A DNA stretch of 53,147 nucleotides, taken from Desulfobacterales bacterium (GTDB lineage: Bacteria; Desulfobacterota; Desulfobacteria; Desulfobacterales; JALSRD01). Under the pieces are notes generated by a model. That model did not search any database. It was not told where the DNA came from and saw only the letters and a list, made by a program, of their open reading frames with translations. The stretch lies in NCBI GenBank assembly GCA_026984935.1, contig JALSRD010000060.1, positions 1 to 53,147 of the forward strand, written 5' to 3'. Positions 10,085 to 19,028 of the stretch are shown here, piece after piece (position 1 is the first letter of the stretch; each line of letters starts with the position of its first letter). The translations under genes and the position numbers were made by a program.

Positions 10085-12475
10085 CTACTTCTCTTCTTTT
10101 CCCTGTTTGGCGGCGCGGGCCTGCTCATCGGCCAGAATTGCGGCGGCGGCCCCGCCGGCGGCAGCGGCGGCGACTTTCTCATGAACGCCGCCGGCGCCGT
10201 CCGTGGCGGGCTGCGTCCTGCTTTCCGGGGGGATGTAAACCGTGACGTCGCGGTGGGCGAACTGGATGCCGTTTTCCCGGAAAGCCTGCTGCATCATCTG
10301 AAAGACATGCCGCCGCACGACGAACTGCTCGCCCGGGTAAGTCTTGAACTTGACGCGCATGATCATGGCCGAGTCGTCCAGCTCGCGGATGCCCTGGGAT
10401 TTGACCTTGCTGAGCAGCACCTTGGCGATCTCCGGGTCGGCGGCCAGCTTCTTATTGATTTTCTTGATGATCTTGCGAACCTTGTCCACGTCCGTGTCGT
10501 AGCGTACGCGGAAATCGAGCTTGGTGATGATGTAGTCACGGCTCAGGTTCTGCACCGAACCCATGCTGCCGAAAGGAATGGTGTACACCATGCCCCGCGG
10601 GTGGCGCAACTTCAGCGAGCGCAGGGAGATATGCTCCACCATACCCTTGGCGCTGCCCACGCGGATATAATCGCCCACGCGGAAGGCATCGTCGATGAGA
10701 AAAAAAACGCCGGAGATGATGTCCTTGACCAGGGTCTGGGCACCGAACCCGATGGCCAGGCCGACGACGCCGGCGCCGGCGATCAGCGGACCGATGTCGA
10801 TGCCTACGGAAGACAGTACAATCAACGAAACGATGACCAGCATCACGGTAAGGATGAACTTGCGCAGCAGCACCAGCAGGGTGGCGCTGCGCGAGCCGCC
10901 CTTGCCGCCCTCTTCCATCTCCCGGTCGTCATCGGGCATCTCCTCATTGAGGCGGCGGTCGATGCGCGTCTTGATCAGTTGCCAGGCGATAAAGCCCAGC
11001 AGCAGGGTAACCACGACGTTGAGCACGTGCCCGGTAAAAATGCGGCCCACCGACAGGTCGATGCCCCACAGCCGCAGCACCATAAAAAAGAAAAAGACCA
11101 CCAGCACCGTTCGCAGGATGCGTCTGATCAGGGGCACGTAGTCTTTGATGTCCGTCCCGCCGGCAATTCCGCGCTCTTGACGCGCAAGGACGGCTTCTTC
11201 ACCGCTGAGGTCGATCACTTCGCGCATCTCGCCCGACATCATCTTGAGCAGCCGCTGGCCCCACGCGTCCAGGCCGATGAAAGCCGGGATCAGAAACAGG
11301 CTGACGATCAACTTCACCACCGTGACCTGGCCATGGACGACACTGATCTGCCAGAAAAATCCAATCACCAGCACGTACAAAATGGCGAACAGGTGCCACG
11401 TGCCGGCAAAACGGGCCCGCAGCGACGCGCCGGCGGCGCACTCGGGCAGCGCTGGCGGACAGATGGCCGCCGCCACCCGGCCGCGGGCCTGCCAGACCAT
11501 GGCGGCAATGAGCAGCGTAATGCCCAAGCCCGTGGCGCAGGCTGCCATCAGTGAAACCCCCGGTTGAAAACCGGTCTCTTTGAGGATCGAGGCAACCGGC
11601 GCCGTCACGGCTGCAAAAGCCGTCACCGTCCGCATCCAGCGGTAGAGGAATTTCGCGTCGGCATCCGCCATGGGCGCCAGCCGCAGGCGGCCGGCTTTGG
11701 GCGCGAGCAGTACCCGTGCGGCCAGCATGATGACGCGGTAGTAGTAGGCGGCGAGCAGAAAGCCGGAGACCACCGCATGTTCGGCGCCGGCCCGGGGAAA
11801 GACCACAACATAGGCAATGAAAGTGGCCAGGATGAAAACCGCAACGCCCAGTACGTCCAGCAGAAAGCCGGACAGGATATGGCCGGATTTCTGCAGAAAC
11901 CCATGGGGCATACTCCTTACCAGCTGCCGGCGCAGCCCGTCGGTGAATGCGCAGCTCAGACGCTCGAGCGCCAGGCCGCCGGCGATCAGCAGCACCAATC
12001 CGAAAAGCACCAGCACCAGATGGCCGGCGCCGCGCCCGCCGGACAGCTTGTCCAGCCAGGCGCCGCCGACGTCGGAACCCCGGGCCTGAGCCAGCGTCGC
12101 ATAAAAAACGCGCAGCTGCCCGGCGGCATCCCGGAGGCTCTTTTCGGCGCGTCGGAACCAAATGATGATGAGCCCGTTGCCCTGGGTTCCCACCTTTCCG
12201 CCGGCGGCAGTCCGGACCGCGGCGGCCGCCTTCTGCCTGAGAGTTAGTGCGAGCACCTGGCGGGCCTGGTCGTCGCTCAAAGTGGCCAGATAGGCGTCGA
12301 CTTTCTCGGGGGTCAGATCCTGGGGGACTGCAGCAAGGGGGGGTGTTTCAGAGCTTTTGCTTTTCTTGCCAAACCGCGGAATCTTGCCCGCCTGCAGCGG
12401 CATGCTGCCCGCAAAAAGCAGCACAGTCAGCACACAGAGGCATGCCAAAAGTACGCGACGGCCCTGGTGTCGCAT
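10085..12475 (-). CDS. MscS-family mechanosensitive channel, large multi-helix type
   Basis: Inner-membrane channel expected to open under membrane tension and release solutes during hypo-osmotic shock. The 796-residue protein starts with a signal peptide (ALCVLTVLLFAGS-like hydrophobic stretch), a short periplasmic part, then about ten hydrophobic helices. The pore-lining helix and start of the beta domain lie at about 561-607 (GAGVVGLAIGFGAQTLVKD, VFFLIDDAFRVGDYI). The cytoplasmic MscS domain and an Ala-rich tail rich in charged residues follow. It is far larger than MscS itself and resembles MscK/YbdG-like long members. AAAGGAGGAG precedes the start. It is the last gene of the metV-cytochrome run; a functional link is not evident. 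Confidence 0.9.
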   Translation of the reverse strand: MRHQGRRVLLACLCVLTVLLFAGSMPLQAGKIPRFGKKSKSSETPPLAAVPQDLTPEKVDAYLATLSDDQARQVLALTLRQKAAAAVRTAAGGKVGTQGNGLIIIWFRRAEKSLRDAAGQLRVFYATLAQARGSDVGGAWLDKLSGGRGAGHLVLVLFGLVLLIAGGLALERLSCAFTDGLRRQLVRSMPHGFLQKSGHILSGFLLDVLGVAVFILATFIAYVVVFPRAGAEHAVVSGFLLAAYYYRVIMLAARVLLAPKAGRLRLAPMADADAKFLYRWMRTVTAFAAVTAPVASILKETGFQPGVSLMAACATGLGITLLIAAMVWQARGRVAAAICPPALPECAAGASLRARFAGTWHLFAILYVLVIGFFWQISVVHGQVTVVKLIVSLFLIPAFIGLDAWGQRLLKMMSGEMREVIDLSGEEAVLARQERGIAGGTDIKDYVPLIRRILRTVLVVFFFFMVLRLWGIDLSVGRIFTGHVLNVVVTLLLGFIAWQLIKTRIDRRLNEEMPDDDREMEEGGKGGSRSATLLVLLRKFILTVMLVIVSLIVLSSVGIDIGPLIAGAGVVGLAIGFGAQTLVKDIISGVFFLIDDAFRVGDYIRVGSAKGMVEHISLRSLKLRHPRGMVYTIPFGSMGSVQNLSRDYIITKLDFRVRYDTDVDKVRKIIKKINKKLAADPEIAKVLLSKVKSQGIRELDDSAMIMRVKFKTYPGEQFVVRRHVFQMMQQAFRENGIQFAHRDVTVYIPPESRTQPATDGAGGVHEKVAAAAAGGAAAAILADEQARAAKQGKEEK

Positions 12476-12533: not shown

Positions 12534-12932
12534 TTACGGCTGGGGGTGCCTGAGATGACACTCACCGCACAAAAGCGGCCCCTTTTTCTCCTTTTTATGG
12601 CAGGAAATGCACAGGGTATGAAAGGCCTTGCGCAACCCGGGAGCGGTTTTCGAAGATTTCAGCGGGTGGCAGTCGGAACAGTTCTGGTCCTCGGAGGACT
12701 CGTCCGGAACCAGTTTCCCATCCTCGTAGAGGTGATGGCAGACGCTGCAGTCCTCCAGCCCGGCCTTTTCGTTGTGTGCCTCGTGACGAAACACAGCGGC
12801 CGGCCGCTGGGGGTGAGCGAAGTCACCGCGGTCAACGGCGACCATGTCCTCCTGGCAAAAAGCGGCGGCACAAAAAAAAGCCAGCAGCAGGAGAACGGCA
12901 CAGGGCAGATAAAAGCGATTGTATTTCCTCAT
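12534..12932 (-). CDS. tmcA: Periplasmic tetraheme cytochrome c3, acidic TmcA (type II) like
   Basis: Periplasmic electron carrier with four c-type hemes. The 132-residue precursor starts with a hydrophobic export signal. Four CXXCH motifs follow at 62-66 (CSVCH), 85-89 (CSDCH), 108-112 (CISCH) and 122-126 (CGECH), with candidate distal ligands H50, H53, H67 and H105. The acidic insert DGKLVPDESSEDQNCSDCH resembles the type II cytochrome c3 TmcA, which in Desulfovibrio passes electrons from periplasmic hydrogenase/type I c3 to the TmcBCD membrane complex. The start at 12932 is the first good ATG before the signal. It is directly downstream of an Fe-S protein and a membrane cytochrome b, consistent with a Tmc-like complex. 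Confidence 0.88.
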   Translation of the reverse strand: MRKYNRFYLPCAVLLLLAFFCAAAFCQEDMVAVDRGDFAHPQRPAAVFRHEAHNEKAGLEDCSVCHHLYEDGKLVPDESSEDQNCSDCHPLKSSKTAPGLRKAFHTLCISCHKKEKKGPLLCGECHLRHPQP

Positions 12933-12982
12933 CGGCCCATCCAAATCACACTTGGGCTTCCGAATCAACGTTAAAAACGGCT

Positions 12983-13402
12983 TTATCTCTCACCGGACAC
13001 CGTAAAATCAGGATAGACGCCCTGGCTGCGGCAGATGCTGCGGGCCAGCGAGATCAATCCCGGAATATCGATGCCGCAGATACAGTAGCAGCGGGTGCAC
13101 AAAACGCAGTCCTGCCAGACGATGTCCCGGATCTTCTCCAGGCAGGCACGGTCGACCTTTCCCTTTTTTTTGTAGAGCAACCCGGTGGAATGGATGAACT
13201 TGTAGGCCGGCATGTACCGTGGGTCGCGGTGATGGGACGTATATAGGAAACAGCTTTCGGCGCACAGGCTGCAGTGCACGCAGGCCCGCAGGCTGATCTT
13301 GATCTTCGCCTTGTGCCGGTCCAGCATGTGTTTGATCTCGGCGGTGTCGACTGCGGTCGTTTTACCGGACGCAGCAACTTCTGTCAGTGCTCTGTCAAGC
13401 AT
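12983..13402 (-). CDS. HdrC/TmcB-like protein with two [4Fe-4S] clusters
   Basis: Cytoplasmic-side electron-transfer subunit of 139 residues. Two ferredoxin-type cluster motifs are visible: C41-VH-C44-SL-C47-AES-C51 and C99-VL-C102-TR-C105-YCI-C109, with an additional Cys at 107. The second motif lacks the Pro usual after its last Cys. The spacing resembles HdrC and the N-terminal part of TmcB/HdrD, but the CCG domains that bind the noncubane clusters are absent and the gene ends with a normal TAA, so this is not a disrupted longer gene. A GGAG site precedes the ATG. It lies 24 bases after the cytochrome b gene and 50 before the tetraheme cytochrome, implying one complex. Confidence 0.82.
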   Translation of the reverse strand: MLDRALTEVAASGKTTAVDTAEIKHMLDRHKAKIKISLRACVHCSLCAESCFLYTSHHRDPRYMPAYKFIHSTGLLYKKKGKVDRACLEKIRDIVWQDCVLCTRCYCICGIDIPGLISLARSICRSQGVYPDFTVSGER

Positions 13403-13426
13403 GCGTATCTCCGAACATCAACTTTG

Positions 13427-14140
13427 TTACCTCCAGACTCGGCGCCCGCTTCCCAGGCTGTATTCGTGAGCCACAAGAAAACGCAGCACGAAGAACAAAA
13501 ACATATGCGCAATCCTGGTAAACGGAATGGAAACCAGCATGAGCTCGCCCAAAAGCATGTGCAGCGTGATCACCATCCGGTAGTCGAATATCTGGTGATA
13601 GGCCAGAAAGCCGCTGGCAAACGGCGCGGCCGCCAGAAAGAGAATATAGTAATCCTGAAACGAGCTGAGGGCACGCACGCGCGCCAGCAGCATGCGCCGC
13701 AGCAGAAAAAACAAGGCACAGGCCAGAAACAGCCACGTCAGATAGTCGGACAGTTTTTCACGAACGGCAAAAAGGCTGAACCCCCAGGCCTCATCGACAA
13801 GGATGTTGTGCGCCAAAAGGAAAAGCGGCACCAAAAACAGCAGCGTATGGAAGATCACCGTGACGCCGATCGTCAGCGGCTGGGTCCCCGCGATGGAAAG
13901 CCGCAGCCGGGCCGTCCACCTCCCGGACAGTCCATCCGCCGGCCGGGTTCCGGAAAGCGGGCCGGCATCAGGGGTCCGGCCCCATCGATGCGCTTCGGTC
14001 TTGCGCGTCAGCGCAAGCAGCCGGGTCACCTGATAAACACTGCCGGCCACAAAAAGGATGAAGGCCACCCACACCAGCGGGCCCTGCGCCAGGTTGTAAA
14101 GCATGCGGAGTGCACTATCTGCCGAACCGAATTGTGCCAT
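13427..14140 (-). CDS. Membrane cytochrome b subunit (NarI/DsrM/TmcC-like)
   Basis: Integral membrane electron-transfer subunit of 237 residues with about five hydrophobic helices. Histidines suitable for heme b coordination lie within helices: FHTLLFLVPLFLLAHN in the second and LHMLLGELMLV...RIAHMF in the last, a layout known from NarI and the Hdr-linked HdrE/DsrM/TmcC subunits. A hydrophilic loop of about 45 residues follows the first helix. It would carry electrons across the membrane between the periplasmic cytochrome c3 and the cytoplasmic Fe-S protein encoded just downstream. The ribosome-binding site is weak. Which of NarI, DsrM or TmcC it resembles most cannot be decided by eye. Confidence 0.8.
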   Translation of the reverse strand: MAQFGSADSALRMLYNLAQGPLVWVAFILFVAGSVYQVTRLLALTRKTEAHRWGRTPDAGPLSGTRPADGLSGRWTARLRLSIAGTQPLTIGVTVIFHTLLFLVPLFLLAHNILVDEAWGFSLFAVREKLSDYLTWLFLACALFFLLRRMLLARVRALSSFQDYYILFLAAAPFASGFLAYHQIFDYRMVITLHMLLGELMLVSIPFTRIAHMFLFFVLRFLVAHEYSLGSGRRVWR

Positions 14141-14193
14141 TGCGAACGCGTTTCACTTCCGATGTCCGGGCAGCGGACAATTGCCTCCCGGAC

Positions 14194-14865
14194 TTATTTC
14201 CGGTGTTTTTGGGCATAGGGAGCCTGCACGGTTACGCGCAACACCTGGTTGCGCCAGGCCATGGGCGGCCGGATCTTCAGGATATCGTCCAGCCGGTGCT
14301 GCCCCTTGAGCCGCTCGTAGATGTTGTACCAGGCACAGGGCGTATCATCGCCGATCTCGCACATGCCTTTGTCCGTGCCGCCGCAGGGTCCGTTGAACAG
14401 GCTCTTGGCACAGCAGGTCACCGGGCAGATGCCGCCCGTATAAGCCAGCACGCACTGCCCGCAGGCGCGGCACCTTTCCTCGAAAACACCGACTTCGCGG
14501 TCGATGCCGATGGAGACCGTGTTTAACGCCGGAAACACCGGGATATCCGGAAATGTCTCCGCAACCAGCTGCACGCCGGCGCCGCAGGCCATGGAAAGCA
14601 GGCAGTCATAGCCCGCCGCCATTTCATACAGCTCATGAAAATACTGGCGGTTGCACTGGCGCTCGATGGTGGTTCCATCCACGCGCGAATCTGTACCGGC
14701 GGACTTGAAAAACGCATTTAATTCGAAATTCAGGGTATTGACTTCACGCTGCCCGCCGGCAAGACAGACCGATGAACATCCACCGCAGCCGATATTCAGG
14801 ATCCGCCGGTATCCCTTGATTGACGCCCTGATCTCTTCCAGGGGCTTTCTCTCTGATTTAACCAC
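14194..14865 (-). CDS. metV: MetV-like Fe-S/zinc protein (methylene-H4folate reductase C-terminal family)
   Basis: A 223-residue Cys-rich soluble protein. The C-terminal half has RCRACGQCVL, TGGICPVTCCAKSLFNGPCGG and later Cys residues at 169 and 177, the signature of the MTHFR_C domain found in MetV. MetV is the partner that links MetF of the Wood-Ljungdahl pathway to its electron source in acetogens and sulfate reducers. The N-terminal half has a CGGCSSVC motif (C27, C30, C34) plus C71, C88 and C94. The GTG at 14865 is chosen as start because AGAGAGG lies six bases upstream; a TTG at 14916 opens the frame but has no site. No metF is nearby. It heads a minus-strand set with cytochrome b, Fe-S protein and cytochrome c3. 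Confidence 0.82.
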   Translation of the reverse strand: MVKSERKPLEEIRASIKGYRRILNIGCGGCSSVCLAGGQREVNTLNFELNAFFKSAGTDSRVDGTTIERQCNRQYFHELYEMAAGYDCLLSMACGAGVQLVAETFPDIPVFPALNTVSIGIDREVGVFEERCRACGQCVLAYTGGICPVTCCAKSLFNGPCGGTDKGMCEIGDDTPCAWYNIYERLKGQHRLDDILKIRPPMAWRNQVLRVTVQAPYAQKHRK

Positions 14866-14999
14866 ACCACACCTCTCTATAAGGAGCGCCTGCGTCCATA
14901 TAACGGCACATCGCAAACGTCAAGGCCCTATATGGCCGCATTTTTATTTAAACCCGGATAAATATACCACAATGCGGTATTTACATCAAGGCCGACGCC

Positions 15000-17364: not shown

Positions 17365-18687
17365 CTAGAAGTTGGATGATTCAGGGTGGAACACGTCCAC
17401 CTCTTTGAGATCATCGCCGAGGTACTCGCGTTCGTTGGGCCCCAGAATGCCCAGCGACAGGCAGATGATCGTCCACAGGTGAACGGTGTGATACCCGGCT
17501 TTATAATGGTCGCTCAGGTCGTGAATCTGGGCATGGCAGTTGTGGCACGGCGTGATGCAGTAATCCGCCTGGGTGGCCGTAATCTGGTCCAGTTTCAGTT
17601 TGCCGTACTGCCGGCGGGCATCGGGGTACCCGGACTGCAGAAACCCCCCGCCGCCGCCGCAGCAGAAATTGTTGGAACGGTTGGGGGTCATATCGACGAA
17701 ATTTTCTTCACCCACAACCGATTTGACGACGTAGCGCAGATCCTCGGCCACCGGGTCTCCAAAGGACTTGCGCACCAACTGGCAGGGGTCCTGCACCGTG
17801 AACTTGATCTTGCGGTCCTTGTTCCAGTCGGAACTGACCTTGAGCTTGCCCTCCCGGATCCACTGGGCGTAGTATTGAATGATGCTCTTGATCTCGAAGT
17901 TGTAGTCAATCTTGAATCTCTTCAGTCCGGCCCGGACTGCAAACAGTTCGTGCCCTCATTCGGTGTTGAGCCACACCTTGCAGCCCAAGTCCTCCACCGC
18001 TTTCTTTTTGACCTCCACGATGTGCTTCCAGTTTTCCTCGTCTGCCATGAACATGCAGTAGTTCTCCGCCGCCCAGCCCTTGGTGCCGTACGTCCAGTCG
18101 GCCCCCGCAAGGTGCAGGATCTTCCACAAAGGCACCATCTCGTCCGGTTCGGTCACCGGTTCACGGGAATTCTGGTTCAGGAAGAATTCGGCTCCCTGCC
18201 GGTTGATGGGCGCCTGCATGTCCTTGAATTCGGGCTGCGCTTCCTGGTATTCCTCGAGGACATCTTCCACCACGAATTTGAAGTCTTCCTCCGAGGCGCC
18301 CATGGCGCTGCAGGTGTCGCTGCGCAGGGCCATGTCACAGGATCCGACAATCCCCTTGGGCCGTTTTTCACGCGGCCAGGACTGGCGGGCGTAAAAAACC
18401 AGCTGCGGAATATCGATTTTCATGGGACAGACGTAAATGCAGCGCTGGCACATGGAGCACATCCAGACCCAGGGCGTGCTGGTAATTTCTTCATCCAGGC
18501 CCAACGCCGCCATGCGCAGGAATTTCCGCGGGTCCATGTCCTCGAGCCCCGTGGCCGGGCAACCCGACGAACAGGCGCCGCAGGTCAGGCATAAATTCAG
18601 GTTGCCGCCGTCCGGGATCAGTTCTTTGACCTTGTCGATAAAAAAACTCTTCTTCTTGCCGCCAAGTTTGATCGCTTCCTCAGCCAT
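17365..18687 (-). CDS. hdrD: HdrD-like Fe-S reductase, predicted selenoprotein (in-frame TGA = Sec244)
   Basis: Cytoplasmic or membrane-associated heterodisulfide-reductase-type subunit of 440 residues if TGA at 17958-17956 is read as selenocysteine. The N-terminal ferredoxin-like part has C33-LT-C36-GA-C39-SSG-C43 and C77-SM-C80-QR-C83-IYV-C87. A degenerate first CCG module follows (C211, C236, then NTE-U244-GHE). A complete second CCG module has C302, C342-C343-GGGGG, and C381-HN-C384. Reading through the TGA keeps the same frame and gives uninterrupted similarity-type sequence (GHELFAVRAGLKRF...), where relatives have NTECGH. A stem-loop fitting a bSECIS starts 16 nt after the TGA. The start at 18687 has GGGAGGAAG upstream. 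A nonsense mutation is the alternative, but the frame after the TGA is fully intact. Redox partner unknown. Confidence 0.85.
17919..17943 (-). promoter_or_regulatory. Predicted bSECIS element inside the HdrD-like gene
   Basis: On the minus strand CAGTCC (17939-17934) and GGACTG (17928-17923) pair perfectly around a GGGCC loop. Below a single G/A mismatch the stem continues with U-A, U-G and U-A pairs (17941-17943 with 17919-17921). The stem base is 16 nt and the first loop G is 22 nt after the UGA, within the range known for bacterial SECIS elements, whose apical loop needs an early G. Confidence 0.75.
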
Positions 18688-19028
18688 ACGCCATCTTCCT
18701 CCCCGGTATCGTTCTACACATAACGTTTCTGGGCTGCACGCCTGTTCCGCTCCCTTGTGAGTCGTTACGTCAGCCGTCACCGCATTTAAAGGATACTTTA
18801 TATCACAGCCGGGATTCATCTTGCAAGGGCTAAGTGGCCCGATTCATAAATGCGATGGCATTCATCCGTCCAGGCATCCCATCCGGCTGTATGACGAAAA
18901 CATCCCGTATGCCGAAGTTTGCGCGCCTTGCCGGACGGGCGCCTTGACGGCTTCGGTGCATGACCGTATTTCCGAACCTGACCACTAAGCCATTTTCGAA
19001 ATCCGCTTCAGCCCCTGCTCAAAAGCGC
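18688..19028. other. Intergenic leader region of the HdrD-like gene
   Basis: About 340 bases between yjbQ and the HdrD-like start. It holds the candidate promoter at 18797-18826 and a leader of roughly 100 bases. Nothing else recognisable is seen between 18827 and 19028. Confidence 0.5.
18797..18826 (-). promoter_or_regulatory. Candidate promoter of the HdrD-like gene
   Basis: On the minus strand TTGCAA (18826-18821) and TATAAA (18802-18797) are separated by 18 bases, a good sigma-70 pair in an AT-rich patch. It would place the transcript start about 100 bases before the ATG at 18687. Confidence 0.5.

Follow-up and report, generated by a model that had tools for sequence, protein, structure and literature searches.

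Four types of methylene-H4folate reductase (MTHFR) have been distinguished: MetF, MetVF, MetVF-RnfC2 and the Hdr type (PMC9430772). The last of these, HdrCBA-MvhD-MetVF of Moorella and Sporomusa (type 4 in PMC9430772), is built on a MetV/MetF core, and an electrical link from it to the membrane has been proposed. For the MetVF-HdrBCA of Sporomusa, however, it was not possible to identify the membrane-integral partner (PMC9430772), and the membrane connection of MTHFR has been drawn as a hypothetical linker only (PMC8578096). An energy-conserving reduction of methylene-THF had been postulated about 45 years before the latter paper (2021), which still called it unproven. The relevant potentials are -200 mV for methylene/methyl-THF and -74 mV for menaquinone (PMC8578096, PMC9430772). 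MetVF-RnfC2 (Acetobacterium) and plain MetVF (types 3 and 2, PMC9430772) share the MetV/MetF catalytic core; these enzymes are soluble, use NADH or ferredoxin as donor and have no cytochromes. In sulfate reducers, Murali et al. describe MetF-HdrABC and the Tmc complex as separate systems (PMC10553843).

Here, we analyse a 53,147-nt stretch of DNA from a Desulfobacterales bacterium (the window), in which metV stands beside genes of a Tmc-like kind. A sequence-only reading had named four genes on one strand, and domain and profile matches agree with every one of the names:

14194..14865, minus strand: metV, MetV-type subunit of 223 aa with a GTG start (Pfam PF12225, E=1.1e-35)
13427..14140, minus strand: tmcC-like gene, TmcC/HmcE-like (NarI-type) membrane cytochrome b of 237 aa (NF045723, E=2e-51)
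12983..13402, minus strand: FeS gene, stand-alone dicluster Fe-S protein of 139 aa (partial NF045711/NF045724 matches)
12534..12968, minus strand: tmcA-like gene, TmcA-type tetraheme cytochrome c3, 144 aa from TTG (NF045722)

The gaps between the genes are short: 53 nt (MetV/cytochrome b), 24 nt (cytochrome b/FeS) and 14 nt (FeS/TmcA). For the cytochrome c3, an ATG at ~12932 is a more likely start than the TTG, and its hydrophobic N-terminal stretch is consistent with export. A promoter scan found one weak sigma-70-like site 5' of metV (14961..14989, minus strand), which is at chance level (1.3 expected in shuffles). The run holds no metF, hdrA or mvhD, as the same reading had said, and the MTHFR-family genes of the genome are all on other contigs.

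Two neighbours share the strand of the run. An MscS-type channel with a long N-terminal region (10085-12475, minus strand) begins 58 nt past the tmcA-like gene, so that read-through could occur; this gene does not recur at the other loci described below. On the other side, 2.5 kb upstream, lies an HdrD-like protein with dicluster and CCG domains (17365-18819, minus strand). Its frame holds one in-frame TGA at the Cys of an E(C)GH motif, probably a selenocysteine codon. Orthologues at six Hdr-type MetVF loci (L073, L078, L080, L081, L082, L084) are interrupted at the same NTE site. The genome encodes selB, and the selB contig also carries another TmcB-like gene whose frame contains a TGA (G000:C67:35323-36411).

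Subunits of the window run

The window MetV keeps all 13 Cys that are invariant across 54 aligned MetV sequences, a set common to the MetV of this gene set (hereafter the module) and to Hdr-linked MetV. That is, it has the conserved Cys of a MetVF-type MTHFR. It is 53-70% identical to its orthologues and 43-46% identical to the Hdr-linked paralogues of its own genome.

The cytochrome b is related to TmcC but scores below the equivalog cut-off (174.5 bits against 240 for NF045723). It matches HmcE with E=6.5e-41 and NarI weakly. Four His (98, 111, 194 and 212) are invariant in alignments of 46 and 56 sequences, as in Tmc/NarI-type cytochromes b with two b hemes, and the protein is therefore fit to hold two transmembrane b hemes. 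A protein search found no second TmcC-like homologue in the genome. The cytochrome c3, in turn, passes the TmcA equivalog cut-off (NF045722; 159.5 bits against 114), so that the acidic tetraheme cytochrome c3 of the Tmc complex is represented. Its four CXXCH motifs and further His are conserved in the alignment, and its nearest solved structure is cytochrome c3 (3cao/3car, E=1.2e-32). For the other three proteins no sequence match was found in the PDB, nor did AlphaFold2 models of MetV (pLDDT 77.7) and FeS (87.2) give a significant Foldseek match there.

The Fe-S protein is where the module departs most clearly from Tmc. Its matches to the HmcF/TmcB profiles are confined to the N-terminal third/half (E=3e-28/7e-24), and it has no CCG domain; at 139 aa, it is not a full-length TmcB with CCG (HdrD) domains (compared with the full-length TmcB/HmcF proteins L209-L212). 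On the FeS profile, stand-alone short ORFs score at least 165 bits and full-length TmcB/HmcF (ORFs of ~250-550 aa) at most 151 bits, the exceptions being a few fragments at contig ends. The cluster motifs also differ. The first is CX2CX2CX3C; the second is CX2CX2CXC, generally followed by P, whereas full-length TmcB/HmcF have CX2CX2CX3CP and run on into the CCG half. A DNA pattern of the shortened motif (CX2CX2CXCP) matches nearly all module loci. The window protein itself departs from the CXCP consensus, with CYCICG in which the Pro is lost and a Cys gained: residues 99-110 (~13073-13108, minus strand) read CVLCTRCYCICG; the corresponding residues of relatives are CXXCXXCXCP. Through its additional Cys, the window protein regains a CX3C spacing next to the CXC one.

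With TmcABCD of Desulfovibrio, then, the module shares a TmcA-type cytochrome c3, a TmcC-like cytochrome b and the N-terminal half of TmcB; it differs in the missing CCG/HdrD half, in the shortened second motif, in having no TmcD that we could see and in carrying MetV, usually with MetF, at the cytoplasmic end. HmcABCDEF has HmcE- and HmcF-like subunits in common with it, and 14-17 heme cytochromes take the place of TmcA at some module loci; we saw neither HmcB, HmcC nor HmcD in the window run, the CCG half is missing, and MetV/MetF are parts of the module. HdrCBA-MvhD-MetVF and the module have in common the MetV core, usually with MetF, and the proposed electrical link to the membrane. In place of HdrA, HdrBC and MvhD, however, the module run encodes a cytochrome b of the membrane, an Fe-S protein with two clusters and a cytochrome of the periplasm. 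By these sequence features it is placed outside the Tmc complex family, because of its TmcB and TmcC counterparts, and outside the Hdr type, because HdrA and MvhD are absent from the run.

Since the FeS protein corresponds to the N-terminal half of TmcB/HmcF without CCG, the module looks like a Tmc complex in which MetV(F) has taken the place of the DsrC-reducing head. We consider it quite likely that the four genes encode a membrane electron module of MTHFR, that is, a Tmc-like complex with MetV, and MetF by way of MetV, where the HdrD/CCG head would be. In evolutionary terms, a Tmc chassis would have lost its HdrD head and had MetV(F) put on.

Conservation of the gene set and its link to metF

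The window MetV was searched against 291 genomes of the class and has matches at 53-66% identity in many families. All 29 of the 29 best loci besides the window hold MetV, and FeS, TmcC and TmcA recur next to it where the short locus extends far enough. By the FeS profile, 64 of the 291 genomes carry the module, as do 31 of 395 in a sample of the phylum. Scanning the species genomes of GTDB yielded 427 relatives, and the best 80 of these include Desulfoluna butyratoxydans, D. spongiiphila, D. limicola, Desulfocicer vacuolatum DSM 3385, Desulfosarcina widdelii and D. cetonica, as well as MAGs named Desulforapulum autotrophicum and Desulfosudis oleivorans, Syntrophaceae, Desulfohalobiaceae, Ca. 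Tharpella and Ca. Anaeroferrophillacea.

We assembled 95 non-redundant Desulfobacterota loci that carry the FeS gene. MetV is in the same run at 94 of them, TmcC at 93 (directly before FeS at 92) and a TmcA-type cytochrome at 80; the genes are separated by short gaps, and some overlap. Such recurrence excludes a chance grouping. The conserved four-gene order by which the sequence-only reading could be checked is another matter: the set is conserved, but its order is permuted. TmcA-MetV-TmcC-FeS-MetF (n=20) and MetF-TmcC-FeS-TmcA-MetV, with or without a second divergent MetF (n=22), are the commonest arrangements, and MetV-TmcC-FeS-TmcA is found in the window only.

A metF gene (>45% identity) is in the run at 57 of the 95 loci and absent from it at 38, some of which are ended by contig edges. 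At 12 loci, the run is immediately preceded, on its own strand, by acsB-acsC-acsE, or by acsC/acsE alone where nothing further was detected. In three of the 12, Pfam confirms acsB (CdhC), acsC (CdhD-family with an Fe-S domain) and a pterin-binding methyltransferase. The link to methylene-THF thus no longer depends on MetV alone. This linkage to CODH/ACS is seen at the orthologous loci and not in the window itself; the window genome encodes CdhC (CODH/ACS beta subunit) on another contig (C106). CdhC is present in 55 of the 64 module genomes, an association that is positive and weak (Fisher p=0.047) because most of the class carries CdhC. The module occurs without CdhC, at the threshold used, in three genomes of few contigs (G124, G127, G212). 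In G127 (L079), the metF adjoining the module is only 50% identical to canonical metF, and nearby genes read, from their sequences, like CoA-transferase and fumarase. This suggests a TCA-type organism, where the module may have a role in oxidising methyl groups or in making methionine.

These synteny data also bear on a more conventional explanation, in which the run encodes a normal Tmc complex whose TmcB is split, with the CCG half encoded elsewhere (e.g. by the HdrD-like protein upstream of the window run), and metV/metF are mere neighbours. The TmcA above its equivalog cut-off, the TmcC-like cytochrome b and the presence of a CCG protein 2.5 kb away would fit. Yet that protein has a dicluster domain of its own, its orthologues stand at Hdr-type MetVF loci and not at module loci, and the flanks of the module have no recurring CCG gene. 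Moreover, MetV is present in 94 of 95 runs, and many module genomes encode a full-length TmcB/HmcF-like protein elsewhere as well. Synteny largely refutes the split, and we regard it as very improbable.

By Pfam, the flanks hold sensor kinases for the most part, and no additional partner for electron transfer turns up repeatedly. Most frequent among the neighbours (L046-L165) are PAS/histidine kinases and response regulators, with HATPase_c in 16 of 82 scanned. In Syntrophaceae and others, a second, divergent MetF-like gene (28-36% identical to canonical MetF) follows the module (L126:8061-8933, L117, L127, L133, L134, L138, L141, L149, L156, L160), and the window genome has a relative of it (C100:75847).

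A window module without its own metF

The assembly of the window genome (3.89-Mb, 99.45% complete) holds two more MetV, on contigs C100 and C32; a MetF comes after each of them, and both pairs stand in operons with HdrA and MvhD (these two named from their sequences). These copies, unlike the window run, are thus of the Hdr type. Both canonical MetF are paired with an Hdr-type MetV; one divergent and one short MetF-like protein complete the family. With both canonical MetF paired elsewhere and none adjoining, the window MetV is left without a MetF of its own. As judged from the sequence, an adjacent metF is either lost here or was never present, and for an MTHFR role MetF would have to be supplied from another locus.

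Trees of loci holding both genes (with only 12 Hdr-type loci among them) bear on whether this is plausible. Changes of chassis, Hdr or membrane, number two on the MetV tree and seven on the MetF tree, against a shuffled mean of 11.2. We infer that MetV tracks the chassis, as an adaptor to the electron-input module, and that MetF is exchanged between chassis, which makes a MetF acting in trans plausible for the window. A separate membrane-type clade of MetF was considered and rejected, since module MetF and Hdr MetF intermix.

The missing metF could also mean that the window copy is a relic, or regulatory or secondary, with MetV off MTHFR duty or the cytochromes alone serving another acceptor. 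No metF lies on the contig, the window MetV sits on a long end branch (0.44), the window FeS protein deviates from the CXCP consensus, and a genome of the same genus (G001) lacks the module altogether. On the other hand, all frames are intact and every MetV Cys and TmcC His ligand is retained; a module without metF is no rarity (38 of 95), and MetV stays in the run of such modules; and the closest relative (L125) has metF within its run. Decay or a secondary role is accordingly an improbable account of the window copy.

As for the membrane route that the sequence-only reading proposed, its link to methylene-THF is supported by metF in 57 of 95 runs and CODH/ACS genes at 12. That it operates rather than the soluble Hdr-linked route does not hold, because this genome also has Hdr-linked MetVF.

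A possible electron path and its meaning

A membrane electron module of MTHFR would provide a reversible path. From the cytoplasmic end, electrons would pass between methylene/methyl-THF, the FAD of MetF, the Fe-S clusters of MetV and the two clusters of the FeS protein, and onward through the two b hemes of the TmcC-like subunit to the periplasmic TmcA-type cytochrome c3, with a possible menaquinone branch at the cytochrome b. Inward flow to methylene-THF (E0' ~-200 mV) would be electrogenic if the donor were H2 or formate in the periplasm. When acetate or methyl groups are oxidised, electrons would run the other way, from methyl-THF to the c3/quinone pool; this would consume membrane potential if they exit on the periplasmic side and not if they exit at the quinone. 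The occurrence of the module in Syntrophaceae as well as sulfate reducers fits such a reversible coupling site.

Within this scheme, MetVF might be linked to menaquinone and not to a periplasmic cytochrome, TmcA being accessory and dispensable. This is a sub-variant of the membrane module and does not exclude it; we hold it possible, though on the unlikely side. NarI-type cytochromes b are often quinone-reactive, and no c-type cytochrome was detected in 15 of the 95 runs. Menaquinone (-74 mV) would also be a feasible acceptor for methyl-THF (-200 mV; values from PMC8578096). Against this, a TmcA-type cytochrome is kept in 80 of 95 runs. Several loci, moreover, swap TmcA for a 14-17 heme cytochrome (14-17 CXXCH motifs in place of four in six of 43 aligned cytochromes, L107 and L137 among them), and this speaks for a partner in the periplasm. 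Loci L103, L107, L113, L132 and L137 have several TmcA-like matches or multiheme cytochromes replacing the single TmcA.

In the open-access papers searched we found no description of MetV/MetF with TmcC/TmcA, which does not by itself prove that the module is new. The module is real, conserved and probably undescribed, and we read it as a membrane-linked variant of MetVF-type MTHFR; most likely it would constitute a fifth MTHFR type, membrane-bound and cytochrome-linked. It is a genetically encoded candidate for the missing connection between MTHFR and the membrane, and its presence in cultured organisms (Desulfoluna, Desulfocicer vacuolatum, Desulfosarcina) makes the question of MTHFR wiring directly testable. 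If the proposal is true, the module would show how complete-oxidising sulfate reducers shed the electrons of methyl-THF, and how syntrophic acetate or propionate oxidisers might push them uphill.
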